Numbered from the stretch's first letter, positions 12,078 to 26,617 are shown. The stretch: DNA of 26,617 bases from a virus (IMGVR_UViG_3300005583_000011:1-26617), one strand, 5' to 3'. Numbers and translations: made by a program. Notes: generated from the letters alone by a model not told the origin.

Positions 12078-12746
12078 ATGTCTGAAATATCAGTGTTTGC
12101 GACTGCGGGTCTCCCCACCGTCACCGATCTCGCGGCGTCACTGCGGGGCCTGGCTGCCGGCGCGGGCAGCGGGTCGGCGGTGCTGCTCAAGATGGCCAAG
12201 AACGGCGACTGGATCTTCGGCTCCGATCAGACCACCGTCGAGCCGAACGCCGAGTGGGCGATCAACCCGTTCTCCTTCATCCACGGGTATATCGCGTGGG
12301 GTGACGGCGAGGTTCTCGGCGAGGCGATGGGTCCGATTGCGAAACCGAAGCCGGAGGTGGGCGAAGCCCCGGCGGCGGCCAAGCGTGGTTGGGAAGACCA
12401 GGTTGGGTTGTCGGTAAAGTGCGTGAGCGGCGCCGACGAGGGGATGGAGGCGCGGTTCACCGTCACCAGCGTGGGGGGTAAGAAAGCGGTGCAAGCCGTG
12501 GCCCTGGCCATCGCCGCGCAAGTGGAGGTGGACTCGACAAACCCCGTGCCGGTGGTGCTGCTGCGTAAGGGCCACTACCAGCACAAGTCCTACGGTCGCA
12601 TCTATACGCCTGAGTTCGAGGTGGTCCGGTGGATCGCCATGGACGGTCGTTCACCGGCGCAGGCTGCGAAAGGTGACACGCCCCCCACGTCGCCACCAGC
12701 GGAGGCGGCCGCACCGGCACAGGCTACACGTCGCCGCGTTGTCTGA
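12078..12746 (+). CDS. Putative phage ssDNA-binding/replication accessory protein
   Basis: 222 residues, starting MSEISVFATAGLPTVTDL, with AAGGAAG upstream. The middle contains LLKMAKNGDWIFGSD and NPFSFIHGYIAWGD, followed by a linker and a second block (GYGRIYTPEFEVV-like) ending WIAMDG. The tail (about 198-222) is Pro/Ala-rich and ends ATRRRVV. Proteins with this layout lie between the DUF2800 nuclease and polymerase A in many phages and are thought to be ssDNA-binding. Here that is based on context and general pattern, not on an identified OB-fold. It could also be a recombination mediator. Confidence 0.6.
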   Translation: MSEISVFATAGLPTVTDLAASLRGLAAGAGSGSAVLLKMAKNGDWIFGSDQTTVEPNAEWAINPFSFIHGYIAWGDGEVLGEAMGPIAKPKPEVGEAPAAAKRGWEDQVGLSVKCVSGADEGMEARFTVTSVGGKKAVQAVALAIAAQVEVDSTNPVPVVLLRKGHYQHKSYGRIYTPEFEVVRWIAMDGRSPAQAAKGDTPPTSPPAEAAAPAQATRRRVV

Positions 12747-12750
12747 TGGA

Positions 12751-12780
12751 TTTGCCCCGGTCCTTTAGGGCCGGGGCAAA
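12751..12780 (+). terminator. Strong hairpin between genes (terminator-like, no U-run)
   Basis: TTTGCCCCGG (12751-12760) pairs perfectly with CCGGGGCAAA (12771-12780). The inner TCC TTTA GGG extends the stem to about 13 bp with a TTTA loop. No T-run follows on the plus strand, so classical termination is doubtful. It stands 11 bases before the polymerase ATG, which has no visible Shine-Dalgarno sequence, so it may instead control polymerase expression. Confidence 0.6.
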
Positions 12781-12791
12781 ACCTCACCCCT

Positions 12792-17821: not shown

Positions 17822-18433
17822 CTACGCCGCGCTGCGCGCCATGGCCAGGAGTAGGTCCCGAAACTCAACCGGCGTCGCGTTGCGTATCTGCGTCTTGTTT
17901 TTCCCGCCGATCATCGACACCAACCCTTTGCGGCGGGCGTATTCGTATCCGTGACGCGCGAGCATGGTCGGGTCTAGCCGTTGCTCTCCGCGCCCCCAGC
18001 GCAGCTCTGGCAGGGTGACGCGGCAGGCATAAAGCCACGTCCCCTTCCGCGCCGCGTGGCCGTAGAAGCCCTGCTCCACGTAACAAGTCCAGCCGTCGTG
18101 CTGATCGGCGGCGACCCACCCGCCAGCCCGTGCTGGGGTTGTCAGACCGTGCGCCGCCCAGGCTTTGCTGTCCGCCGGGTGCTCAAGCACGCCGCCCCAA
18201 CGCCGCACCGAGGCGAGCGCCGCGCTGAAGCACCCGCCATCGTCACCAAGCAGGAACTGGTGCGGCTTACGCGGGGAGCCGTGCCAGAACCGCCCCCATC
18301 GCTGGCATGGGGGGTGCGCCACAACCGGCCAGGGGCCGGCATACGGCCGGGCGTCGCGGGCCTCGTCCCAAACCTCGACGCCCGCCAGGTTGCCGTAAAC
18401 GCCAGCGGGTTCGACATACAACGCTGCAATCAT
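17822..18433 (-). CDS. Conserved phage protein with PPCQ motif, possible methyltransferase relative
   Basis: 203 residues from the ATG at 18433 (AAGGA upstream). N-terminal MIAALYVEPAGVYGNLAGVE is followed by VVAHPPCQRWGRFW near residue 38. The PPCQ is like the motif IV of C5-cytosine methyltransferases. Later blocks are GGVLEHPADSKAW and GWTCYVEQGFYGHAARKGTWLY. The protein is too short for a complete C5 methyltransferase, and no clear AdoMet-binding glycine motif is seen. It is a frequent phage protein, usually named hypothetical. A role in DNA modification or host recognition is possible but unproven. Last gene of the minus array, ending at the terminator. Confidence 0.6.
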   Translation of the reverse strand: MIAALYVEPAGVYGNLAGVEVWDEARDARPYAGPWPVVAHPPCQRWGRFWHGSPRKPHQFLLGDDGGCFSAALASVRRWGGVLEHPADSKAWAAHGLTTPARAGGWVAADQHDGWTCYVEQGFYGHAARKGTWLYACRVTLPELRWGRGEQRLDPTMLARHGYEYARRKGLVSMIGGKNKTQIRNATPVEFRDLLLAMARSAA

Positions 18434-18458: not shown

Positions 18459-18587
18459 TTACGCGCCCAGCTTGGCGCGGAGGCACTCGTTGTAGGTCCC
18501 GTGCCGCACGATCCGATAGCCGGATCGCGGAACCTCGCCCTTGCACACAATGCTGTTGCCGTGCGCGTCGATCTGTAACGTATACAT
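18459..18587 (-). CDS. Small hypothetical protein, 42 aa, with array leader
   Basis: 42 residues beginning MYTLQIDAHGNSIVCKGEVP and ending YNECLRAKLGA. The strong GAAGGAGA site seven bases upstream belongs to the repeated leader with its GC hairpin (18609-18630). Stop and following start are 25 bases apart. It may be a small beta-rich protein with two Cys. No family recognised. Presence of the leader, which is shared with neighbouring genes, is the best reason to accept this frame. Confidence 0.65.
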   Translation of the reverse strand: MYTLQIDAHGNSIVCKGEVPRSGYRIVRHGTYNECLRAKLGA

Positions 18588-18608
18588 GACGGTCTCCTTC
18601 AGGTTCTC

Positions 18609-18630
18609 CCCCCGCCGGGATCGGCGGAGG
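18609..18630 (-). promoter_or_regulatory. Array leader A (hairpin + SD) for gene at 18587
   Basis: CCGCCG (18612-18617) pairs with CGGCGG (18622-18627) around GGAT, with flanking C:G pairs beyond one mismatch. On the minus strand it is followed by AGAACCTGAAGGAGA and the ATG at 18587. Diverged linker compared with the other copies. Confidence 0.7.
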
Positions 18631-18647
18631 GGTGGGGGGTGGGCGGG

Positions 18648-19391
18648 TCAGCCGAGCACGGCGGCGCGGCGTGCGGCCATCTCGTCGGGCGACAGGCCCC
18701 CATTCATAGGCATCACGACACCCAGGAAGCGCGGGTCTTGGGTGGCGACTAACAGCGGGTCAACACCGTTCCAGTCGAACGACATGCAGGGTTCGCCGGC
18801 GCGCGTCATCCCCTTGAACAGGGTGGGGTCCACGCCGGAGTAGGTGACGGGCCGCGCCCTCGGCGCGTCGTCGTGCGGCGACACGATGTGGGTGGCCCGG
18901 CTCCCGAGCATCGGCCCGTCCAGGCTGGGCACGACCCGGCGCCAGTCCGGGAACGTGCCGTCCACCAGCAGCGCGGATACGGGGAAGGTCTGCGTCACCC
19001 GCCCGCTGTCGATCACTTCTGCCGGCGCGGGCGCGGCTTGACTCGGCATCCACCGCACCTCGACCGTCTCCGTGCGGATGATGATCCAATGCGCGTCCCG
19101 TTTCGTGGCCTTGAGCGCGGCCAGGAACGCCTTGTTGCCGATCGACAGGATGATGTGCGCCGGCGTCTCGCCCACCGGGTTCGGGGCGCAGTAACCCTCG
19201 GTCGCGGGCAGCCGCAGGACGCCCAAGCGGTGGCCGTCCGTGGCCACCAGATGCGCGCCGTCGGGGGCCGGCGCAACGTGAACGCCTTTCAGATAGTAGC
19301 GGGTCTCCTCGCTGCTCGCGAACTGCGCGATGTGCAGGAAGTCAACGGCGGGGAAGATGGCGCGGATGTCGGCGGTGATGGTGTCGGTCAT
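18648..19391 (-). CDS. DNA polymerase III beta subunit-like sliding clamp, short form
   Basis: 247 residues from the ATG at 19391, directly after the leader. Beta-clamp landmarks: LVATDGHRLG (48-57), the phrase ending a clamp domain, TFPDWRRVVP (146-155), and the C-terminal VVMPMNG (225-231), equivalent to the LVMPMR end of DnaN. The full-length bacterial clamp has three domains in about 366 residues; here only about two are present, with no first domain. A sliding clamp would tether the family A polymerase encoded at 12792, or could interfere with the host clamp loader. Assignment is good; the oligomeric state is unknown. Confidence 0.75.
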   Translation of the reverse strand: MTDTITADIRAIFPAVDFLHIAQFASSEETRYYLKGVHVAPAPDGAHLVATDGHRLGVLRLPATEGYCAPNPVGETPAHIILSIGNKAFLAALKATKRDAHWIIIRTETVEVRWMPSQAAPAPAEVIDSGRVTQTFPVSALLVDGTFPDWRRVVPSLDGPMLGSRATHIVSPHDDAPRARPVTYSGVDPTLFKGMTRAGEPCMSFDWNGVDPLLVATQDPRFLGVVMPMNGGLSPDEMAARRAAVLG

Positions 19392-19415
19392 GGTCGGTAT
19401 CCTTCTGGTTGGTCT

Positions 19416-19438
19416 CCCCCTGCCGGGATGGCAGGGGG
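19416..19438 (-). promoter_or_regulatory. Array leader B (hairpin + SD) for clamp gene
   Basis: CCCCCTGCC (19416-19424) pairs with GGCAGGGGG (19430-19438) around GGGAT. On the minus strand AGACCAACCAGAAGGA then ATACCGACC leads to the ATG at 19391. Confidence 0.85.
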
Positions 19439-19453
19439 GGTGGGCGGGTGGGG

Positions 19454-19687
19454 TCAACTGCGCGCCACTGCGTTGTCGCGGATCACGCGGGCGACATGCC
19501 TGATCGACAGGGGGTAAAAATCTTCTTTCCGCACGTCGCCCCCCAGCCAGGTCCCGGCCGGCAAGAAGGTTTCCAAACCGCGCAGGGTCCACATCGTATG
19601 CGTCGTTTCCCCTCCCCACTGGCGCTCGATTTGCCGCAAAAACGCTCGGGCGGCGCGTTCGGCGGACGCTGGCGTGATGTTGGTCAT
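19454..19687 (-). CDS. Small hypothetical protein, 77 aa
   Basis: 77 residues from the ATG at 19687 (MTNITPASAERAARAFL), chosen because leader C ends there; the longer frame runs through the hairpin. The product is basic with a central LETFLPAGTWLGGD and a C-terminal helix SIRHVARVIRDNAVARS. No conserved catalytic motif and no family recognised. It lies between the clamp gene and another array gene, each with its own leader, so translation initiates independently. Confidence 0.65.
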   Translation of the reverse strand: MTNITPASAERAARAFLRQIERQWGGETTHTMWTLRGLETFLPAGTWLGGDVRKEDFYPLSIRHVARVIRDNAVARS

Positions 19688-19712
19688 GGTCGTGGTCCTT
19701 CTGGTTGGTCTC

Positions 19713-19735
19713 CCCCCTGCCGGGATGGCAGGGGG
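19713..19735 (-). promoter_or_regulatory. Array leader C (hairpin + SD)
   Basis: CCCCCTGCC (19713-19721) pairs with GGCAGGGGG (19727-19735). Followed on the minus strand by AGACCAACCAGAAGGA and CCACGACC before the ATG at 19687. Confidence 0.85.
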
Positions 19736-19748
19736 TGGGGGTGGTGGG

Positions 19749-20279
19749 TCAGGCGCCGGCGCGCTCGTCGGCACTGACAACCGGGCCGGTCTCGCCCCGC
19801 TGGGGCTGCGGCGGCAACGCCGTGCGTGAGTAGGTCGAGCGCAGCTTGGACACGGCCTGCTCGTCCTGCGTCATCGTCAGATGCAGGCGCGCGAAGGGGT
19901 GAGAGGTCGGGTAGTCCTCGATCCGCCGGATCTCGGTGCAGACCCAGCCCGCCTTCAGCCGGCGCAGCACCACCGTCGTGCGGATGACAATCCGCCCGGC
20001 TTTGGCGTAGGCGTTCGGCAGCGCGTCGCCGGACTTGGCGTGCAGCTCAGCCCCGGCGCGGGAGGAGACCGGGATGCCCAGCGCGGCGAGCCGCGCCTCG
20101 GCGTCGAGGGCCAGTTCGCGGATGTGCTGGCCGGCGGTGTAGGTGTGCGAGCGGGCCGTGCCATTGACGGCGGTGAGCGCGGCGGTCAGCGCGTCGAGCG
20201 CCGGTTGACGCTGGGCCTCGCGCATCGCGGGGGTGGCGCTGGAGTGCAGCGTGTCGGTCGGGACTTTCATCGGCTTCAT
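19749..20279 (-). CDS. Hypothetical protein, 176 aa
   Basis: 176 residues, starting MKPMKVPTDTLHSSATPAMR. The first half is Ala-rich and helical (LDALTAALTAVNG, LALDAEARLAALG). The middle has IVIRTTVVLRRLKAGWVCTEIRRIEDYP, a likely beta-sheet unit. The tail LPPQPQRGETGPVVSADERAGA is disordered. No known motif. Leader D is immediately upstream. Protein-like composition and clear leader make it a genuine gene; function unknown, probably early. Confidence 0.7.
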   Translation of the reverse strand: MKPMKVPTDTLHSSATPAMREAQRQPALDALTAALTAVNGTARSHTYTAGQHIRELALDAEARLAALGIPVSSRAGAELHAKSGDALPNAYAKAGRIVIRTTVVLRRLKAGWVCTEIRRIEDYPTSHPFARLHLTMTQDEQAVSKLRSTYSRTALPPQPQRGETGPVVSADERAGA

Positions 20280-20303
20280 GGTCGTGGTCCTTCTGGTGGG
20301 TCT

Positions 20304-20326
20304 CCCCCTGCCGGGATGGCAGGGGG
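20304..20326 (-). promoter_or_regulatory. Array leader D (hairpin + SD)
   Basis: CCCCCTGCC (20304-20312) pairs with GGCAGGGGG (20318-20326). Followed on the minus strand by AGACCCACCAGAAGGA and CCACGACC before the ATG at 20279. Confidence 0.85.
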
Positions 20327-20345
20327 GTGGGTGGGGTGGGGTGGG

Positions 20346-20663
20346 TCAGTCGGCGTCGTAGGGGATCAAGTCACTCACGATGCGGTGGCACTTATTCGCC
20401 TGCTTCCCGGCGAGGCGCGCGGCCTTCGCCGTTGCGCTCCAGGGAGGCATGCCGAACGAAAGGGCGTGCACCCACGCGGTGTCCGCGACATGTGCATAGT
20501 ACAGACGGGCCGCCGCGTGCTCGATGTCGTCGTGCGCGGTGGGGTTGAGATATTCCCGCGTCACCTGGGAGGGGGTCAGACGTGGCGCCCACTTGTTGCG
20601 GGCCACCAACGCCGCCTGTAGGCGACGCCGGAACTCTTGCTTGCTCATGGTTGTCGTTGTCAT
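20346..20663 (-). CDS. Hypothetical protein, 105 aa (no array leader)
   Basis: 105 residues starting MTTTTMSKQEFRRRLQAALV. It is basic at the N-terminus with Trp- and Ala-rich helices (HAAARLYYAHVADTAWVHAL) and a basic ATAKAARLAGKQANKCHR stretch. AAAGGATC lies about eight bases before the ATG, and the gap to the upstream gene is only 23 bases, so it has lost or never had the hairpin leader and is probably translated as a pair with the 81 aa protein. No family recognised. Confidence 0.65.
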   Translation of the reverse strand: MTTTTMSKQEFRRRLQAALVARNKWAPRLTPSQVTREYLNPTAHDDIEHAAARLYYAHVADTAWVHALSFGMPPWSATAKAARLAGKQANKCHRIVSDLIPYDAD

Positions 20664-20686
20664 TGGCGTGATCCTTTAGGTGGGCG

Positions 20687-20932
20687 TTACGACTTGGCCG
20701 TGTGCGCGATGGCAAGCCGGGCCGCACGCTCCAGGGTGTCCAGCATGTCAGTCAGGTAGTCCTGCGCGTCGGCGAACATTCCGCCAGCAACGTGCAGCGC
20801 GTCGGGGTCGCCCGCCGCCTCGCCCAAGGCGGAGGTCAGCGCGGCGTCCATAGCTGTGATGGATAGGGACAACTGCGCGACGAGAACGCGGGCGGCGTGG
20901 AGGTGGGGGGTGATGGTGATGGTGTCGGTCAT
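20687..20932 (-). CDS. Small helical hypothetical protein, 81 aa
   Basis: 81 residues, MTDTITITPHLHAARVLVAQ, then a mostly helical Ala/Leu-rich acidic protein ending LAIAHTAKS. Helical content (QDYLTDMLDTLERAARLA) suggests a small four-helix or dimeric coiled protein. The start MTDTIT is shared with the clamp protein (MTDTITADI), so the repeated leader sequence may extend into the first codons. It is the first gene behind promoter P1. No family recognised. Confidence 0.65.
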   Translation of the reverse strand: MTDTITITPHLHAARVLVAQLSLSITAMDAALTSALGEAAGDPDALHVAGGMFADAQDYLTDMLDTLERAARLAIAHTAKS

Positions 20933-20953
20933 GGTCGTGTTCCTTTACTGTCG

Positions 20954-20976
20954 CCCCCTGCCGGGATGGCAAGGGG
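20954..20976 (-). promoter_or_regulatory. Array leader F (hairpin + SD)
   Basis: CCCCCTGCC (20954-20962) pairs with GGCA and GGGG across one C/A mismatch (20968-20976). On the minus strand the linker is shorter (GACAGTAAAGGA) before the ATG at 20932. This leader directly follows promoter P1. Confidence 0.75.
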
Positions 20977-20998
20977 GGTAGTCCTAGATAACAATAAC

Positions 20999-21027
20999 AC
21001 AATAGCATAGGTTGTTACGTTTGTCAA
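20999..21027 (-). promoter_or_regulatory. Minus-strand sigma70-like promoter P1
   Basis: On the minus strand TTGACA (21027-21022), a 17-base spacer ending in TGC, then TATTGT (21004-20999): a perfect -35 box and an extended -10. Transcription would start near 20992, heading toward the gene at 20932. The first 29 bases downstream (20979-21007) are identical to those of P2. Confidence 0.8.
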
Positions 21028-21057
21028 GTAGCCGGGATAACCTGGCGGTGGGCAGGC

Positions 21058-21150
21058 TCAGCCGCTGACATGCGCGATGGCGATGATGCCGACCGCGATG
21101 AGGGCGGCGAGGGCGATAGCGAGGTTCTTAAGCTTTTCATAGAGCGGCAT
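21058..21150 (-). CDS. Tiny single-span membrane protein, 30 aa
   Basis: 30 residues: MPLYEKLKNL, then the hydrophobic segment AIALAALIAVGIIAIA and a short tail HVSG. It is preceded by leader G at the usual distance, which supports it as a true gene despite its size. One membrane span with a charged N-terminus. Small hydrophobic peptides of this kind in early phage regions can act on host membranes or block superinfection; no specific role can be claimed. Confidence 0.65.
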   Translation of the reverse strand: MPLYEKLKNLAIALAALIAVGIIAIAHVSG

Positions 21151-21174
21151 GGTCGTGGTCCTTCTGGTTGGTCT

Positions 21175-21197
21175 CCCCCCGCCGGGATGGCAGGGGG
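21175..21197 (-). promoter_or_regulatory. Array leader G (hairpin + SD)
   Basis: CCCCC-C-GCC pairs with GGC-A-GGGGG around GGGAT with a single C/A mismatch in mid-stem. Followed on the minus strand by AGACCAACCAGAAGGA and CCACGACC before the ATG at 21150. Confidence 0.8.
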
Positions 21198-21205
21198 GTG
21201 GGCGG

Positions 21206-21218
21206 GCATACGGTATGC
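21206..21218. repeat. Palindromic repeat GCATACGGTATGC, copy 1
   Basis: Inverted GCATAC/GTATGC arms around one G. It begins two bases past the stop codon of the gene ending at 21221 (minus strand). Copies at 21566, 23211 and 23976. Confidence 0.8.
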
Positions 21219-21220
21219 GG

Positions 21221-21508
21221 TCAGGCGGCAGCGGCGATCACCAATTCGATCATGCCTGGATGCGTCTCGGACGAGCAATTGCCATCCGTGAAGTGGAAAT
21301 GCACCTCATTGTCCCACTCCTCCAGTTCGGGACGATGCGTGTCCAGTTCGACCGGGAAGTAGCAATCGTCGTCGCTACCCGATTGCTCCCCGACTGTGCC
21401 GCATTCTCCGGCCTGGAATGAAGCGAGGTTCCAGACGTGCGCGGTTTCCGTGAACCGGACCCGACTACCCGCCGGGAAGGGGAATAGGGATTGGAAATCG
21501 TAGGTCAT
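21221..21508 (-). CDS. Small hypothetical protein, 95 aa
   Basis: 95 residues beginning MTYDFQSLFPFPAGSRVRFT. It is rich in aromatic and acidic residues with alternating beta-like segments (HVWNLASFQAGECGTVGE, CYFPVELDTHRPEL, EVHFHFTDGNC). This could be a small beta-barrel. The N-terminal VRFTETAHVW and GECGTV pattern recalls SH3-like phage proteins, but this is only a visual impression. Leader H precedes it and palindromic repeat 1 follows its stop. Confidence 0.7.
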   Translation of the reverse strand: MTYDFQSLFPFPAGSRVRFTETAHVWNLASFQAGECGTVGEQSGSDDDCYFPVELDTHRPELEEWDNEVHFHFTDGNCSSETHPGMIELVIAAAA

Positions 21509-21532
21509 GGTCGTGGTCCTTCTGGTTGGTCT

Positions 21533-21554
21533 CCCCCGCCGGGATCGGCGGAGG
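21533..21554 (-). promoter_or_regulatory. Array leader H (hairpin + SD)
   Basis: CCGCCG (21536-21541) pairs with CGGCGG (21546-21551) around GGAT, then one mismatch and outer C:G pairs. Followed on the minus strand by AGACCAACCAGAAGGA and CCACGACC before the ATG at 21508. Confidence 0.85.
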
Positions 21555-21565
21555 GGTGGGCGTTT

Positions 21566-21578
21566 GCATACGGTATGC
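21566..21578. repeat. Palindromic repeat GCATACGGTATGC, copy 2
   Basis: Lies two bases past the stop of the ArdC-like gene (minus strand) with GGCGTTT on its left, as in copies 3 and 4. Confidence 0.85.
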
Positions 21579-21580
21579 AG

Positions 21581-22450
21581 TCAGGCGGCCTCGGCCATCG
21601 GTTCGGTCGCCGCGTGCAGGTAGGTCGCGGCCTTCTCGGCGGCAGCGGCGGCGCGGAAGATGGCGCGGGGATCGTCACGCAAGCCCTTGATCCAGCCGGC
21701 GATATAGCTAGCGTGATCTGGCCGAGGCTCGATGCTGACGCCCAGATCGGCGCACAGATAGGCCGCGCCCAGTTCGGCAATCAGTTCCTCGAATGCGTAG
21801 TCGGGGTCACCAAAGCGGCCCTTCAAGCTGCGGTCGAGGCGGCTCTTATGGCCGGACCAATGGGTCAGTTCGTGCAGCAGCACCGCATAGTAGGCTTCCG
21901 GCGTGTTGAAGTCGGCGAACCCCGGCATCTGCACGATGTCTTCCGACGGGCGGAAGTAAGCCCGCGCTCCGCCGTGCCGGATGACGGCACGGGTCGCCAT
22001 GGCGAAGGCCTCCGCGCCGGCATGGCGCTCGCCGATCGGCATAGGCTCGGGCGGCGCGGTCGGCGCGAGGTAGGGCGCGGCCAGTCCATCGCACTGGTCA
22101 GCGTTAAACACGCAGTAAGATTTCATCAGGGGGAACATTTTGGCGTCTTCCGTTTCGGTCGCGGCCTTCGCGACCGTCGTGAAAAAGAAAACGGTGGTCG
22201 CCTTCTCACCCTTCCGGACTTGCCCGCCCGCCGCTTGCGCGGCTTTGTAGGTCAGCCAGTAGCGGGACTGGTAGCCGTGGTCCTGCGCGGCGCCCCAAAG
22301 GATCAGCGTATTGATGCCCTGATAGCCCTCGCCTGTGGCGCGGAGGGGCCGACCCATCGGGCCGCCGCTCGCCCATGACTTGGACCAAGGCGCGGTGCCG
22401 GCCTCCAGCATGGCGATGATCTTGTTCGTAACCGTTTCGTAAGAGGTCAT
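21581..22450 (-). CDS. ArdC-like antirestriction protein (ssDNA-binding + zincin metalloprotease)
   Basis: 289 residues. The N-terminal domain (1-120) has the ArdC pattern: ITNKIIAMLEAG-like start, TAPWSKSW (19-26), GYQGINTLIL (42-51) and YWLTYKAAQAAGGQVRKGEK (64-83), the ssDNA-binding part. The C-terminal zincin has HELTHWSGH (193-201), giving HExxH, and a downstream EELIAELGAAYLC as the glutamate ligand region. ArdC proteins, known from plasmids, bind ssDNA and protect incoming DNA against type I restriction. In a phage it should shield injected DNA or act on host nucleases. It is the first gene behind promoter P2, consistent with immediate-early expression. Confidence 0.9.
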   Translation of the reverse strand: MTSYETVTNKIIAMLEAGTAPWSKSWASGGPMGRPLRATGEGYQGINTLILWGAAQDHGYQSRYWLTYKAAQAAGGQVRKGEKATTVFFFTTVAKAATETEDAKMFPLMKSYCVFNADQCDGLAAPYLAPTAPPEPMPIGERHAGAEAFAMATRAVIRHGGARAYFRPSEDIVQMPGFADFNTPEAYYAVLLHELTHWSGHKSRLDRSLKGRFGDPDYAFEELIAELGAAYLCADLGVSIEPRPDHASYIAGWIKGLRDDPRAIFRAAAAAEKAATYLHAATEPMAEAA

Positions 22451-22474
22451 GGTCGTGGTCCTTTACTGTCTCCC

Positions 22475-22491
22475 CCGCCGGGATCGGCGGG
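22475..22491 (-). promoter_or_regulatory. Array leader I (hairpin + SD)
   Basis: CCGCCG (22475-22480) pairs with CGGCGG (22485-22490) around GGAT; one more C:G pair outside. The linker is the short form (AGACAGTAAAGGA) as in leader F, then CCACGACC before the ATG at 22450. It follows promoter P2. Confidence 0.8.
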
Positions 22492-22516
22492 TGGGGTAGT
22501 CCTAGATAACAATAAC

Positions 22517-22545
22517 ACAATAGCAGATGTTGTTACGTTTGTCAA
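22517..22545 (-). promoter_or_regulatory. Minus-strand sigma70-like promoter P2
   Basis: On the minus strand TTGACA (22545-22540), a 17-base spacer ending TGC, then TATTGT (22522-22517). Near duplicate of P1: the -35 side AAACGTAACAA and the whole downstream 29 bases (22497-22525) are shared. It serves the ArdC-like gene. Confidence 0.8.
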
Positions 22546-22569
22546 GCCTTGGGCTTACCCCCCTGGGGG

Positions 22570-22809
22570 TCAGCCGCTGTATCGCTGGGTGCTGTATAGC
22601 GTGCGCGTAAAGGCGACTGGATCGAAGCCCGGCGTCGACTTGGTCAGGGCCACAATCACCGCGTCAAGCTGGGCCAGGGACAGGTCGTATCCCGCCATGT
22701 TCTCGGCGATGTTCTGGACCTGGGTGAGCGTGAAGGCGTCGGTGTGGTCGCACACGAGCCGGACGGCGGTGTTGACCTGCGTGGTGGTTAGGGTGGGATA
22801 CTTAGGCAT
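22570..22809 (-). CDS. Small hypothetical protein, 79 aa
   Basis: 79 residues starting MPKYPTLTTTQVNTAVRLVC and ending FTRTLYSTQRYSG. Helical segments FTLTQVQNIAENMA and LSLAQLDAVIVALT suggest a compact helical fold, possibly HTH-like, but no family is recognised. Leader J precedes it. Its 3' end lies 25 bases upstream of promoter P2, so P2 sits in the gap between this gene and the ArdC-like gene. Confidence 0.65.
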   Translation of the reverse strand: MPKYPTLTTTQVNTAVRLVCDHTDAFTLTQVQNIAENMAGYDLSLAQLDAVIVALTKSTPGFDPVAFTRTLYSTQRYSG

Positions 22810-22831
22810 GGTTGGTCTCCTTCTAGGGTCT

Positions 22832-22854
22832 CCCCCTGCCGGGAGGGCAGGGGG
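22832..22854 (-). promoter_or_regulatory. Array leader J (hairpin + SD)
   Basis: CCCCCTGCC (22832-22840) pairs with GGCAGGGGG (22846-22854); loop is GGGAG. The linker has AGACCCTAGAAGGAGA then CCAACC before the ATG at 22809. Confidence 0.85.
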
Positions 22855-22876
22855 GGTAGGCGTTTGTATCCGGGGG

Positions 22877-22900
22877 AAACCTTATGCCGGCATAAGGTTT
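22877..22900. repeat. 24-bp perfect palindrome, copy 1
   Basis: AAAC + CTTATGCCGGCATAAG + GTTT. Placed between the stop of the 77 aa zinc-ribbon gene and leader J. Other copies at 24006, 26350 and 26406. Confidence 0.9.
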
Positions 22901-22918
22901 GCCTAGGTGTCCGGTCGG

Positions 22919-23152
22919 CTAGTCGGCGTGGTGGAACAGCCCCATCATGGCTAGTTCCTCAGCGCCGTAGACCTTAGCCGCGCCGCAGCCTTCGCAGGTG
23001 TAGCGTCGGGCGGCAGGCTCGCAGCCGGTCTGCGTGTCGCCGCAGCTGAGGCAGAAGCCCCAGCCACCGTCGCGGCGCACGGCGCTCTCGATCCACTTGA
23101 ACGCGGGCTTGAACTGCTTCCGGCCGGTCTTGGTCGTGTAGGATACGGTCAT
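22919..23152 (-). CDS. Small zinc-ribbon protein, 77 aa
   Basis: 77 residues from the ATG at 23152 (MTVSYTTKTGRKQFKPAFKW), chosen by leader K. A clear zinc ribbon: CLSCGDTQTGC (two C plus C) and, 11 residues on, CEGCG. The N-terminal 30 residues are basic and precede a Trp-Gly-Phe start of the ribbon. The end is acidic (ELAMMGLFHHAD). It probably binds nucleic acid or a protein partner. The specific function is unknown. Confidence 0.75.
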   Translation of the reverse strand: MTVSYTTKTGRKQFKPAFKWIESAVRRDGGWGFCLSCGDTQTGCEPAARRYTCEGCGAAKVYGAEELAMMGLFHHAD

Positions 23153-23176
23153 GGTTGGTCTCCTTCTGGTGGGTCT

Positions 23177-23199
23177 CCCCCTGCCGGGAGGGCAGGGGG
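23177..23199 (-). promoter_or_regulatory. Array leader K (hairpin + SD)
   Basis: CCCCCTGCC (23177-23185) pairs with GGCAGGGGG (23191-23199); loop is GGGAG. Linker AGACCCACCAGAAGGAGA then CCAACC before the ATG at 23152. J and K share the GGGAG loop. Confidence 0.85.
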
Positions 23200-23210
23200 G
23201 GTGGGCGTTT

Positions 23211-23223
23211 GCATACGGTATGC
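23211..23223. repeat. Palindromic repeat GCATACGGTATGC, copy 3
   Basis: Lies three bases past the stop of the DUF7227-like gene (minus strand), preceded by GGCGTTT. Confidence 0.85.
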
Positions 23224-23226
23224 AGA

Positions 23227-23910
23227 TCAGGCGGCGATGGCGCTGGCATTGCGCTTGTAGGTGCCGTGTGCCGGGAAGCCGACGATCACGGCGCGCTGCT
23301 TGGCGCACAGACCGCACGAGGCGCACGTCACGTCGTCGCGGTAGGTCGCGGGGCAGACCGTCACTCGCCGCCCCTCAGGCGTGGCCAGCGTTTGGTTGCC
23401 CGTGACGGTGGAGGGTAACACCACGACAACGGGTGCGATGGCCAGCGCGGCCAGCGTGTCGGCGTGCGCCAAGTTGTTGGCGCTCAGATTGACCGTGAAC
23501 CCGCCGGCATTTGCCTTTGCGACGGCGCGCCGGGCGGCGGCGGTGTGCATCGGCTTGTGGGTGTACGTGAAGCCGCGCCGGCCTTTGTTGGCGGCAACCA
23601 ACCGCGCCAGCGCAGCGGTGTCGATGTGATCGCCCACGCCGGGAAGATCGCCGGCTTGGTTGTGACGCCACAGTTGACCCTCGGGCAGCGCCGCGATCTG
23701 CGGCAGCAGCGCGTCAAACGATCCGCCGCGCCGGCCATCCGTCACCTCATCCCAACGGCTTTTGAGCGGGTAGCTTTCGGCGTAGCAGCCCTTGCCCTGG
23801 AAGGGGCATGAGGTCGGGCAGGTCGCGGCGGTGGAGGTGCTGACGGGGATCGGTCCCGTCTTGGAATTGAGTGACTTCAAGGTGAGGCTCACGGCGTAGG
23901 TGTTGGTCAT
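23227..23910 (-). CDS. DUF7227-like phage protein, Cys-rich
   Basis: 227 residues from ATG at 23910. Cys clusters: CPTSCPFQGKGCYAE near the N-terminus and CPATYRD-x-TCASCGLCAKQ near the C-terminus. Between them are LPEGQLWRHNQAGDLPG (about 77-93) and GFTYTHKPMH and VNLSANNLAHADTLA. This family is recognised from phages (DUF7227) and is unassigned in function. The two cysteine clusters suggest metal or Fe-S binding. First gene behind promoter P3. Annotation name is from memory; the sequence pattern is clear. Confidence 0.8.
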   Translation of the reverse strand: MTNTYAVSLTLKSLNSKTGPIPVSTSTAATCPTSCPFQGKGCYAESYPLKSRWDEVTDGRRGGSFDALLPQIAALPEGQLWRHNQAGDLPGVGDHIDTAALARLVAANKGRRGFTYTHKPMHTAAARRAVAKANAGGFTVNLSANNLAHADTLAALAIAPVVVVLPSTVTGNQTLATPEGRRVTVCPATYRDDVTCASCGLCAKQRAVIVGFPAHGTYKRNASAIAA

Positions 23911-23934
23911 GGTCGGTGTCCTTCTAGTGTCTCC

Positions 23935-23954
23935 CCCTGCCGGGATCGGCGGGG
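23935..23954 (-). promoter_or_regulatory. Array leader L (hairpin + SD)
   Basis: CCCTGCCG (23935-23942) pairs with CGGCGGGG (23947-23954) around GGAT; a T:G wobble replaces the usual pair. Linker is the shorter AGACACTAGAAGGA then CACCGACC before the ATG at 23910. Confidence 0.8.
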
Positions 23955-23975
23955 CGGGTTAGGCGGTCGGCGTTT

Positions 23976-23988
23976 GCATACGGTATGC
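23976..23988. repeat. Palindromic repeat GCATACGGTATGC, copy 4
   Basis: Same arms and GGCGTTT left flank as copies 2 and 3, but not next to a stop codon: it lies in the leader between P3 and the DUF7227-like gene. Confidence 0.8.
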
Positions 23989-24005: not shown

Positions 24006-24029
24006 AAACCTTATGTCGGCATAAGGTTT
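24006..24029. repeat. 24-bp palindrome, copy 2 (one central mismatch)
   Basis: AAAC, CTTATGTCGGCATAAG, GTTT: one T for C in the centre compared with the perfect copies. Lies 34 bases downstream of the -10 of P3 on the minus strand, so in the promoter leader. Confidence 0.85.
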
Positions 24030-24063: not shown

Positions 24064-24092
24064 AGTGTAGCACACTTTGTTTCGTTTGTCAA
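24064..24092 (-). promoter_or_regulatory. Minus-strand sigma70-like promoter P3
   Basis: On the minus strand TTGACA (24092-24087), 17-base spacer ending TGC, then TACACT (24069-24064). The -35 side AAACGAAACAA matches P1 and P2 with small changes; the downstream part differs. Serves the DUF7227-like gene. Confidence 0.8.
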
Positions 24093-24111: not shown

Positions 24112-24984
24112 TTAGGTGGACGGGGAGGCGCGGGCCAGACGCGCCAGGCGCAGCGCCTCGCGTGCGCGGACCAGATTCTCAGGGCTTCCACCTGCGCGGC
24201 GGGGTGTGTGGGTTGGGTAGGGAGGGGCGGGGTCGAAGGCGGGGTCGGGTGTGGTGGCGGCGTAGGCGTCGCGTGCGCGGGCCAAGGCGCGCTGCGCGCG
24301 TGCGCTGGTGGGCGAGCGGGCAACAGCATCCTGGGCGGCGAGGTATGCGGAGAACGCGGCGCGGGGGGAGGTCATGGGGGCCGCCGTGTAAGGTGCGCGG
24401 GTGGCACGGTTAGCCGCGCGGCGGGCGGCGGCATCGTAGGCGTCGGCGTCGGCGGCGAGGGCGTCGGCGTAGCCGGCAGCGTAGCGTGCGTATTGGGCGG
24501 ATTGCGCTACGGCGCGGGCGTAGCGGACGCCGCTGGCTTCGACGCGGGCGTCGGCGGTCTGGCGTGCGGCTTCGGCGCGGGCGACGGTGGCCTGGCGCGC
24601 GGCTTCGCGGCGGACGCCGCGGGCTTCGGCGCGGGCGACGGCGCGCGCGGCGGCGGCCAAGCGCGCGGCTTCGCGGCGGACGCCGCGGACGCCGCGGGCG
24701 ACGGCGGCGGCGGCGCGCGCGGCGGCGCCGGCGTGCCGCGCGGCGCAGGCGGCGGCGCGGGCTTCAGCGCGGGCTTCGGAGTAGGCGGCGCGGGCGTCGA
24801 TGGCGGCGGCGCGGGCGTCGATGGCGGCGGCGCGGGCGTCGATGGCGGCGATGTCGCGCGCTTCGGCGCGGGCTTCGCGTGCTTCGACGCGTGCTTCGAC
24901 GCGTGCTTCGGGGCCGGCGGCGCGGGCGGCGCGCGCGGCGCGGGCCTCGGCGGCGGCGATGTCGCGGGCGGTGAGGGTGATCAT
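24112..24984 (-). CDS. Ala/Arg-rich repetitive helical protein
   Basis: 290 residues from the ATG at 24984 (AAGGACCC upstream); the frame stays open further upstream but without protein-like sequence. It is composed almost entirely of A, R, E, D repeats such as EARVEAREARAEAR and three AAIDARA units (DNA repeats at about 24785-24850), ending in a Pro-rich tail and RAREALRLARLARAS. It probably forms long helices or coiled coil. The codon pattern GCG/CGC and GC-rich repeats leave the opposite strand open as well (24109-24999), but the minus frame has the ribosome-binding site. No array leader. Function unknown; possibly DNA- or scaffold-related. Confidence 0.6.
   Translation of the reverse strand: MITLTARDIAAAEARAARAARAAGPEARVEARVEAREARAEARDIAAIDARAAAIDARAAAIDARAAYSEARAEARAAACAARHAGAAARAAAAVARGVRGVRREAARLAAAARAVARAEARGVRREAARQATVARAEAARQTADARVEASGVRYARAVAQSAQYARYAAGYADALAADADAYDAAARRAANRATRAPYTAAPMTSPRAAFSAYLAAQDAVARSPTSARAQRALARARDAYAATTPDPAFDPAPPYPTHTPRRAGGSPENLVRAREALRLARLARASPST
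24785..24850. repeat. 21-bp tandem repeats within the Ala/Arg-rich gene
   Basis: Three adjacent units of GCGGCGCGGGCGTCGATG-type sequence code for AAIDARA on the minus strand. A further near-exact repeat pair with GGCTTCGCGGCGGACGCCGC occurs around 24605 and 24668. Confidence 0.75.
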
Positions 24985-25188
24985 GGGGAGGGTCCTTAGC
25001 GTCGGTTGTTGCGGGGGGCTTCGTCGCGGGGGGCTAGTCCATATGCCCGAGATATGAGCGTAAGCAAGAAATATTGTCGGGGGCGTATCTGCGATGTGTG
25101 CCGGGAGGGGTGTATCGTTGGGGGTGTGATGCGTATCGGGGGGAAGCACTAACGCGGCGGGGGGATGGCGGCGGCCGCATGGTCACGA

Positions 25189-26349: not shown

Positions 26350-26377
26350 GCAAACCTTATGCCGGCATAAGGTTTGC
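26350..26377. repeat. 28-bp perfect palindrome, copy 3
   Basis: GCAAAC, CTTATGCCGGCATAAG, GTTTGC. Longest perfect form; extended by two bases on each side compared with copy 1. Confidence 0.92.
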
Positions 26378-26405: not shown

Positions 26406-26433
26406 GCAAACCTTATGCCGGCATAAGGTTTGC
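26406..26433. repeat. 28-bp perfect palindrome, copy 4
   Basis: Identical to copy 3, starting 56 bases after it, so close to five helical turns apart and on the same face of the DNA. Confidence 0.92.
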
Positions 26434-26474: not shown

Positions 26475-26530
26475 CGCACACGCACACGCACACGCACACG
26501 CACGCACGCGCGCACGCACGCGTGCGCGCG
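26475..26530. repeat. Alternating purine/pyrimidine tract (CA/CG repeats)
   Basis: Continuous CACACG- and CGCACG-type dinucleotide repeats over 56 bases, ending GCGTGCGCGCG. Such DNA can adopt the Z form under supercoiling. Confidence 0.85.
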
Positions 26531-26538
26531 GGGGATAG

Positions 26539-26617
26539 GGCCAGACGGGCAGGGCCAGACGGGCAGGGCCAGACGGGCAGGGCCAGACGGGCAGGGCCAG
26601 ACGGGCAGGGCCAGACG
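26539..26617 (+). repeat. 14-bp tandem repeats reaching the window end
   Basis: Unit GGCCAGACGGGCAG starts at 26539, 26553, 26567, 26581, 26595 and 26609; the last is cut by the window end, so the array may continue. A perfect array of this kind often stops an assembly. Confidence 0.95.

Follow-up and report, generated by a model that had tools for sequence, protein, structure and literature searches.

The question raised by this locus is why eleven unrelated genes of one phage should carry the same block of sequence immediately before their start codons.

Genomic context

The whole stretch of DNA analysed, here called the window, is a P22-like podovirus contig entered in IMG/VR as a linear virus record; it has 26,617 bases and 64% G+C. 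Its polymerase is 61-67% identical to those of IMG/VR relatives and 53% identical to that of MW202483, a complete 38.8-kb podovirus whose portal and coat are annotated as P22-like. The plus strand of the window encodes the polymerase, a primase/helicase-like protein, an exonuclease and an HNH protein, and the terminase small subunit is encoded close to the right end. A leftward cluster of small genes, which includes those for a beta-clamp-like protein, ArdC and DUF7227, converges on the plus-strand replication genes. An early cluster also converges on the replication genes of MW202483, and from the layout alone we infer that the leftward cluster of the window is early.

The genes of this array are mostly orphans or of mixed origin. 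Most of their proteins have no family match, and no relatives were found for ORF 19749-20279. Proteins similar to ArdC occur in Caulobacter phages and on alphaproteobacterial plasmids; the nearest counterpart of ArdC in the genome collection is from Novosphingobium (44%), and ArdC was not found in ten contigs of the polymerase relatives.

Structure and position of the leader

The repeated block is about 47 nt long and is composed of a GC hairpin, a linker, the Shine-Dalgarno (SD) sequence AGAAGGA, an 8-nt spacer and ATG. The original prediction described it as one uniform leader shared by minus-strand genes with starts at 18587, 19391, 19687, 20279, 20932, 21150, 21508, 22450, 22809, 23152 and 23910, and lacking only at the gene starting at 20663. 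All eleven ORF starts are confirmed at these coordinates, and a covariance model built from the eleven copies matches exactly these copies in the window (58-84 bits). The next-best match in the window, a weak piece of 18.8 bits at start 20663 (20661-20690, minus strand), is leader-like in its AAGGA/spacer part alone. The exception at 20663 is not the sole one, since the last gene of the run, starting at 18433, also has no leader; the run, whose starts extend from 23910 to 18433, thus comprises 13 genes, 11 of them with a leader. The uniformity holds for the layout of hairpin, SD and ATG, and fails for the linker and the spacer, which vary among the copies as described below.

Two types of hairpin are distinguished. 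Type 1 reads CCCCCUGCC-AUCCC-GGCAGGGGG and type 2 reads CCUCCGCCG-AUCC-CGGCGGGGG, the two differing by a compensatory change of a U-A to a C-G pair and by one additional G-C pair. Type 1 is found in copies 2 (23153-23199, before ORF 22919-23152), 3 (22810-22854, before ORF 22570-22809), 7 (20933-20982, before ORF 20687-20932), 8 (20280-20326, before ORF 19749-20279), 9 (19688-19738, before ORF 19454-19687) and 10 (19392-19438, before the beta-clamp-like gene, 18648-19391), all on the minus strand. Type 2 is found, on the same strand, in copies 4 (22451-22500, before the ArdC gene, 21581-22450), 5 (21509-21554, before ORF 21221-21508) and 11 (18588-18631, before ORF 18459-18587 of 42 aa), the last having a hairpin of 10 bp followed by AGAACCTG and AAGGA. 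Copy 1 (23911-23957, minus strand, before the DUF7227 gene, 23227-23910) has a type 2 5' arm and a type 1 3' arm with a C.A mismatch, and copy 6 (21151-21197, minus strand, before a hydrophobic ORF of 30 aa, 21058-21150) has a type 1 5' arm and a type 2 3' arm with a U-G pair.

The loop reads AUCCC, CUCCC or GAUCCC in different copies. The linker is A/C-rich and nearly free of U, and its length differs by a few bases; it is AGACCAACC in four copies, AGACCCACC in two and shorter in five, and reads GACAGTAAAGGA in copies 4 and 7. The two hairpin types combine freely with the linker types, and two of the copies have a chimeric appearance. The SD core is AAGGA throughout and lies 8 nt from the ATG (7 nt in one copy), with the spacer CCACGACC in 5 of the 11 copies.

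The only 11 occurrences of the core TCCCGGC(A)GGGG in the window are on the minus strand, each just 5' of a leader gene. With up to three mismatches, TCCCGGCAGGGGGAGAC has 8 matches against 0.1 expected in shuffles. The distance from hairpin to ATG is 14-24 nt (S. D. 3.6), the two values of 14 nt being due to extra outer pairs in the promoter-linked copies, whereas the distance from the upstream stop codon to the hairpin is 10-154 nt (S. D. 41). The hairpin is locked to the downstream ATG and not to the upstream stop, and therefore belongs to the downstream gene. Because it is start-locked and is not followed by a U-tract, the block is best regarded as a 5' leader and not as a terminator. Of the terminator-like sites in the window, none on the minus strand falls on a leader hairpin, and an intrinsic terminator was accordingly rejected.

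The same measurements bear on the possibility that the block is a 3'-end element of the upstream gene, acting between cistrons as a terminator, a Rho site or an exonuclease block. Several copies come after C-rich, G-poor stretches, and intergenic hairpins are common in these phages: with genes called crudely, 78 of 182 co-directional gaps have one, where shuffled sequences would give about 15. However, the wide variation of the stop distance beside a nearly fixed ATG distance, the lack of a U-tract and the two copies directly behind promoters make such an element very improbable.

Promoter-linked copies

Three promoter-like sequences are found on the minus strand: P1 (TTGACA-17-TACACT, 24064-24092), P2 (TTGACA-17-TATTGT, 22517-22545) and P3 (TTGACA-17-TATTGT, 20999-21027). 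P2 and P3 are a duplicated sigma70-like promoter to which leader copies 4 and 7, respectively, are fused, so that promoter and leader together form a duplicated block of 102 nt, the P2 copy of which is 87% identical to 20927-21028. Judged from the position of the -10 element, P2 and P3 would leave about 12 nt between the predicted transcription start site (TSS), that is, the mRNA 5' end, and the hairpin. Since two copies lie close behind predicted TSSs, the leader stands right behind promoters as well as between cistrons.

The duplication of promoter and leader as a single block is also consistent with the leaders being recombination patches, i.e., short homologous boundaries that serve for the exchange or addition of gene cassettes, the hairpin itself being of minor importance. 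The orphan or mixed origin of most array genes, the independent assortment of hairpin and linker types and the two chimeric-looking copies all fit this proposal. It would nevertheless leave the exact start-locking and the retained pairing unexplained, and none of the related genomes examined shows swapped cassettes; we therefore consider it improbable as the main explanation.

Predicted pairing in the leader

Every copy is predicted to fold into a GC hairpin of 8-10 bp, the 61-nt leaders having folding energies between -17 and -24 kcal/mol. The folding z-scores (-1.2 to -3.5) are modest because the region is very GC-rich. Stem positions 1-8 are nearly always paired across the copies. Position 4 passes from U-A to C-G by way of U-G, one copy having the U-G intermediate and one a C.A mismatch. 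In total, the first eight pairs include four G-U wobbles, which keep the sense RNA paired, and two further mismatches. A one-base insertion beside the loop distinguishes some copies from others and reduces the RNAalifold model (R1) to 5 pairs; the stem pairs were therefore counted by hand alignment. The one compensatory pair and the four wobbles, drawn from 11 paralogous copies in one genome, modestly support pairing at the RNA level.

Alternatively, the leader could be a site on duplex DNA for a dimeric protein and serve as an operator or in pausing or silencing, as has been proposed for the extended start-associated sequences (ESAS) of cluster K mycobacteriophages, for which Pope et al. favour DNA binding (PMC3203893). 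The leader is indeed an inverted repeat, and true DNA palindromes adjoin several of the copies. GCATACCGTATGC occurs four times (21206-21218, 21566-21578, 23211-23223 and 23976-23988), each just upstream of a leader, and AAACCTTATGCCGGCATAAGGTTT also four times (22877-22900 and about 24006-24029, 26352-26375 and 26408-26431). On the other hand, the leader has a single orientation, an asymmetric loop, a fixed distance to the ATG and continuity with the SD, and most copies lie away from promoters. Moreover, the sense-strand mismatches at positions 1-8 lean toward G-U (four, against one C.A), although these numbers are small. A duplex-DNA site is therefore a doubtful candidate, with a low probability.

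Several other readings of the hairpin were considered. A template-strand G-quadruplex was rejected as the conserved feature, its motif being present in just 7 of the 11 copies. No Rfam family, the hammerhead included, matches the window at the gathering threshold. As the stem has only 8-10 bp, an RNase III processing site, which calls for a long duplex, seems unlikely. The hairpin as a simple insulator of the SD is likewise unsupported, as the predicted accessibility of the SD is about 0.47 in the native leaders and on average about 0.46 when the upstream sequence is shuffled. The last result moves weight toward mRNA stability or processing, or toward a trans-acting reader.

Such a reader would be an RNA-binding protein of phage or host that recognises hairpin and linker and switches the translation of all eleven genes, much like a phage translational operator. 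This proposal draws on the sharing of the leader by 11 unrelated genes and on a conservation that extends past the SD to the hairpin loop, the linker and the spacer; in linker and spacer it exceeds the needs of an SD, which hints at either a specific reader or recent homogenisation. Analogous repeats in other phages, some of which place GGA, the core of the SD, in the loop of a small hairpin (see below), point in the same direction. Neither the loop sequence nor the linker length is constant, however, and no candidate protein was found, most of the array proteins being without a family match. On balance, a dedicated reader appears rather unlikely, though it deserves more weight than a site on DNA.

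Comparison with known start-associated repeats

Each cluster K genome contains 11-19 start-associated sequences (SAS, or ESAS in the extended form). They lie at the SD, immediately before the start codons of non-structural genes that belong to different families; roughly half have an inverted repeat upstream, and their role is unknown (PMC3203893). The 11 copies in the window are similarly linked to starts of unrelated non-structural genes in one orientation. In contrast, ESAS are 17-bp imperfect inverted repeats whose pairing as RNA was judged unlikely (PMC3203893), and ESAS of phage Adephagia contain promoters (PMC11373665), whereas the arms in the window are 8-10 bp long and pair well, and the promoters are separate from the repeat. 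The cluster K 13-bp consensus GGGATAGGAGCCC has no match in the window with up to two mismatches.

Microbacterium phages provide further parallels (PMC7302621). Cluster EF has SAS/ESAS-like repeats at the ribosome-binding site, and cluster EG has 8-10 18-bp inverted repeats located 14-22 bp upstream of starts, a spacing nearly the same as that of the leader. Their hosts are actinobacterial, and for EG a shared block of linker and SD does not figure in the parts of the account considered here. The window has no match to the EF sequence GGGAAAGGACCCC with up to two mismatches, or to the EG sequence GATCAACCNNGGTTGATC with up to three. Membership of the leader in the K, EF or EG families by sequence was thus rejected. 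The parallel with start-associated sequences of different sequence, drawn in the original prediction for cluster K, stands with respect to layout and extends to the motifs of EF and EG. Compared with the open-licence literature, the leader appears to be a start-associated repeat in kind that lies outside these families.

Two other classes of phage repeat are also similar in part. Clustered hammerhead ribozymes occur between phage and prophage genes (PMC3088659) and, like the leader, are structured RNAs repeated between the genes of one cluster and ending shortly before the next start; unlike the leader, which matches no Rfam family, they self-cleave. The 17-bp palindromes of cluster O mycobacteriophages are present in many copies and are dense in the non-structural arm (PMC4351075). 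They share with the leader the repetition of one inverted repeat, but are symmetric, lie inside genes in about a third of cases and are not start-linked (PMC4351075), and so are nearer to the GCATACCGTATGC palindromes of the window than to the leader.

Searches outside the window

In IMG/VR, a stricter pattern of the leader gave no matches and a looser one gave seven scattered single matches, the best of which (L012) has one GC hairpin with a AGAAGGAG leader and scores 21 bits. Patterns of the leader have no match in 84,980 bacterial species genomes; in phages and plasmids the matches are short and look like chance. Among nine polymerase-relative records, covered nearly in full, none has a repeated start leader comparable to this one; a single family of three repeats, in G009, looks like the ends of a repeated coding sequence. 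Within the collections searched, the leader sequence appears to be lineage-specific.

Structured start-proximal RNAs are not confined to the window, and neither is the repeated start leader as a kind. In several relatives of the window, the polymerase leader has strong hairpins, unlike one another in sequence and with compensatory differences, although the starts were chosen automatically and are unreliable for several loci. Several of about 150 phage loci, a set collected for different purposes, also have a repeated start leader of their own. The contig of one of these (L141) has seven type-II hammerhead hits, four of them above the gathering score, and six of these hits end roughly 15-25 nt before genes with the repeated leader, of which this phage has seven, a position from which action at the RNA level is expected. 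In another (G002) and its relatives, the hairpins are of the AGTCC kind, AGTCCAATGTTGGACT or AGTCCGACAGCGGACT; several copies have a second small hairpin as well, with changing stems and a loop that presents GGA, the core of the SD. What is peculiar to the window is that one sequence is reused eleven times as a complete leader.

Proposed function

Repetition, start-locking, single orientation, a predicted hairpin, the lack of a U-tract and the promoter-fused copies form the observed basis for reading the block as an RNA leader, and the structured RNAs in the same start-proximal position in other phages (L141, G002 and the polymerase leaders) support this reading. Against it are the thin covariation, which amounts to one pair, and the lack of a relative with the same leader. 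With slightly better than even confidence, we regard the block as a 5' leader of the start-associated kind: a standard cassette for expression, copies of which stand before most genes of the early leftward cluster. It is most likely a module acting as RNA for standard translation initiation and for mRNA processing or stability. The original prediction of a common expression system is well supported insofar as the block is start-locked, has a single orientation, is absent elsewhere and stands both behind promoters and between cistrons; translation control, RNA processing and a phage factor are candidate mechanisms for it.

In such a cassette, the GC hairpin of 8-10 pairs would mark in the mRNA the upstream edge of each ribosome-binding site, and would be followed by a single-stranded A/C-rich linker, the uniform SD AAGGA and the fixed 8-nt spacer. 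Acting as RNA, the block may give each cistron an identical initiation site, and the hairpin may provide a stable, defined 5' boundary within a polycistronic mRNA, as protection from decay, as a processing edge or as both. Newly acquired genes could thereby be expressed alike, with the copies probably spread or homogenised by recombination. A host or phage factor binding the hairpin is possible in this scheme and would not be required.

In the open-licence literature, start-associated repeats have been on record since 2011, chiefly from actinophages and always as motifs without an assigned function. The present leader is from a P22-like podovirus whose ArdC has its nearest relatives in alphaproteobacterial plasmids and Caulobacter phages. 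It may be speculated that phages have repeatedly and independently evolved a genome-wide standard leader, in which a structured RNA fused to the SD of accessory genes is commonly read or processed, coordinates the set and allows captured genes to be expressed at once, and that it takes the form of a plain hairpin in the window, a hammerhead ribozyme in the phage of L141 and GGA-loop hairpins in G002 and its relatives. We put this joint proposal forward tentatively, as an idea that may well not hold. The well-formed predicted hairpin, the fixed geometry and the two copies behind predicted promoters make the role of the repeat accessible to simple reporter assays in laboratory strains, and the leader could find use in high-GC bacteria as a naturally occurring standard part for gene expression.

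Two of the leader-bearing ORFs are very short (30 and 42 aa). The case for their being real genes rests largely on the leader, which in this way flags very small genes that gene callers could miss.

Repeated leader elements in other phage loci

Seven matches to the type-II hammerhead ribozyme lie at 32339-35541 of contig IMGVR_UViG_3300008255_000242 (locus L141), four of them exceeding the Rfam cut-off, and six of the seven are located immediately 5' of successive small phage genes. The arrangement is a natural ribozyme-per-gene array, the ribozymes being predicted from the sequence.

Other phage loci display repeated hairpins in their leaders. The hairpin AGTCC..GGACT recurs in L093, L095, L082, and L083 (for example, in the minus-strand leaders of L167), together with a second hairpin that carries the SD core GGA inside its loop and whose stems covary (CAATAC-GGA-GTATTG, CAAC-GGA-GTTG, and CAAAC-GGA-GTTTG). 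CsrA-type proteins recognise RNA via GGA in a loop. Several gene leaders of L178 (contig IMGVR_UViG_3300050821_003054) have the flank CCAGCGAACAA in common, while the hairpins enclosed by it differ in sequence.

A strong hairpin is also found 5' of the polymerase gene of the window (12731-12791), and likewise in the polymerase leaders of four relatives (L024, L137, L144, and L153); the stems of the relatives differ in sequence, with compensating changes.

Palindromes and other features of the window

The operator-like palindrome GCATACCGTATGC occurs in four identical copies (21206-21218, 21566-21578, 23211-23223, and 23976-23988), each closely 5' of a leader. The long palindrome AAACCTTATGCCGGCATAAGGTTT, a possible repressor or packaging site, is likewise present four times, with two copies within the leftward gene cluster (22877-22900 and about 24006-24029) and two adjoining the terminase small-subunit gene (26352-26375 and 26408-26431).

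The minus-strand ORF preceding the cluster (24112-25149) lacks the repeated leader and is of very low complexity, rich in Ala, Arg, and Glu (for instance, AARAEAR); it may not be a true gene. At the right end, tandem copies of the 14-mer AGGGCCAGACGGGC occupy 26523-26617 and continue past the contig end, the assembly having probably broken off inside this array.
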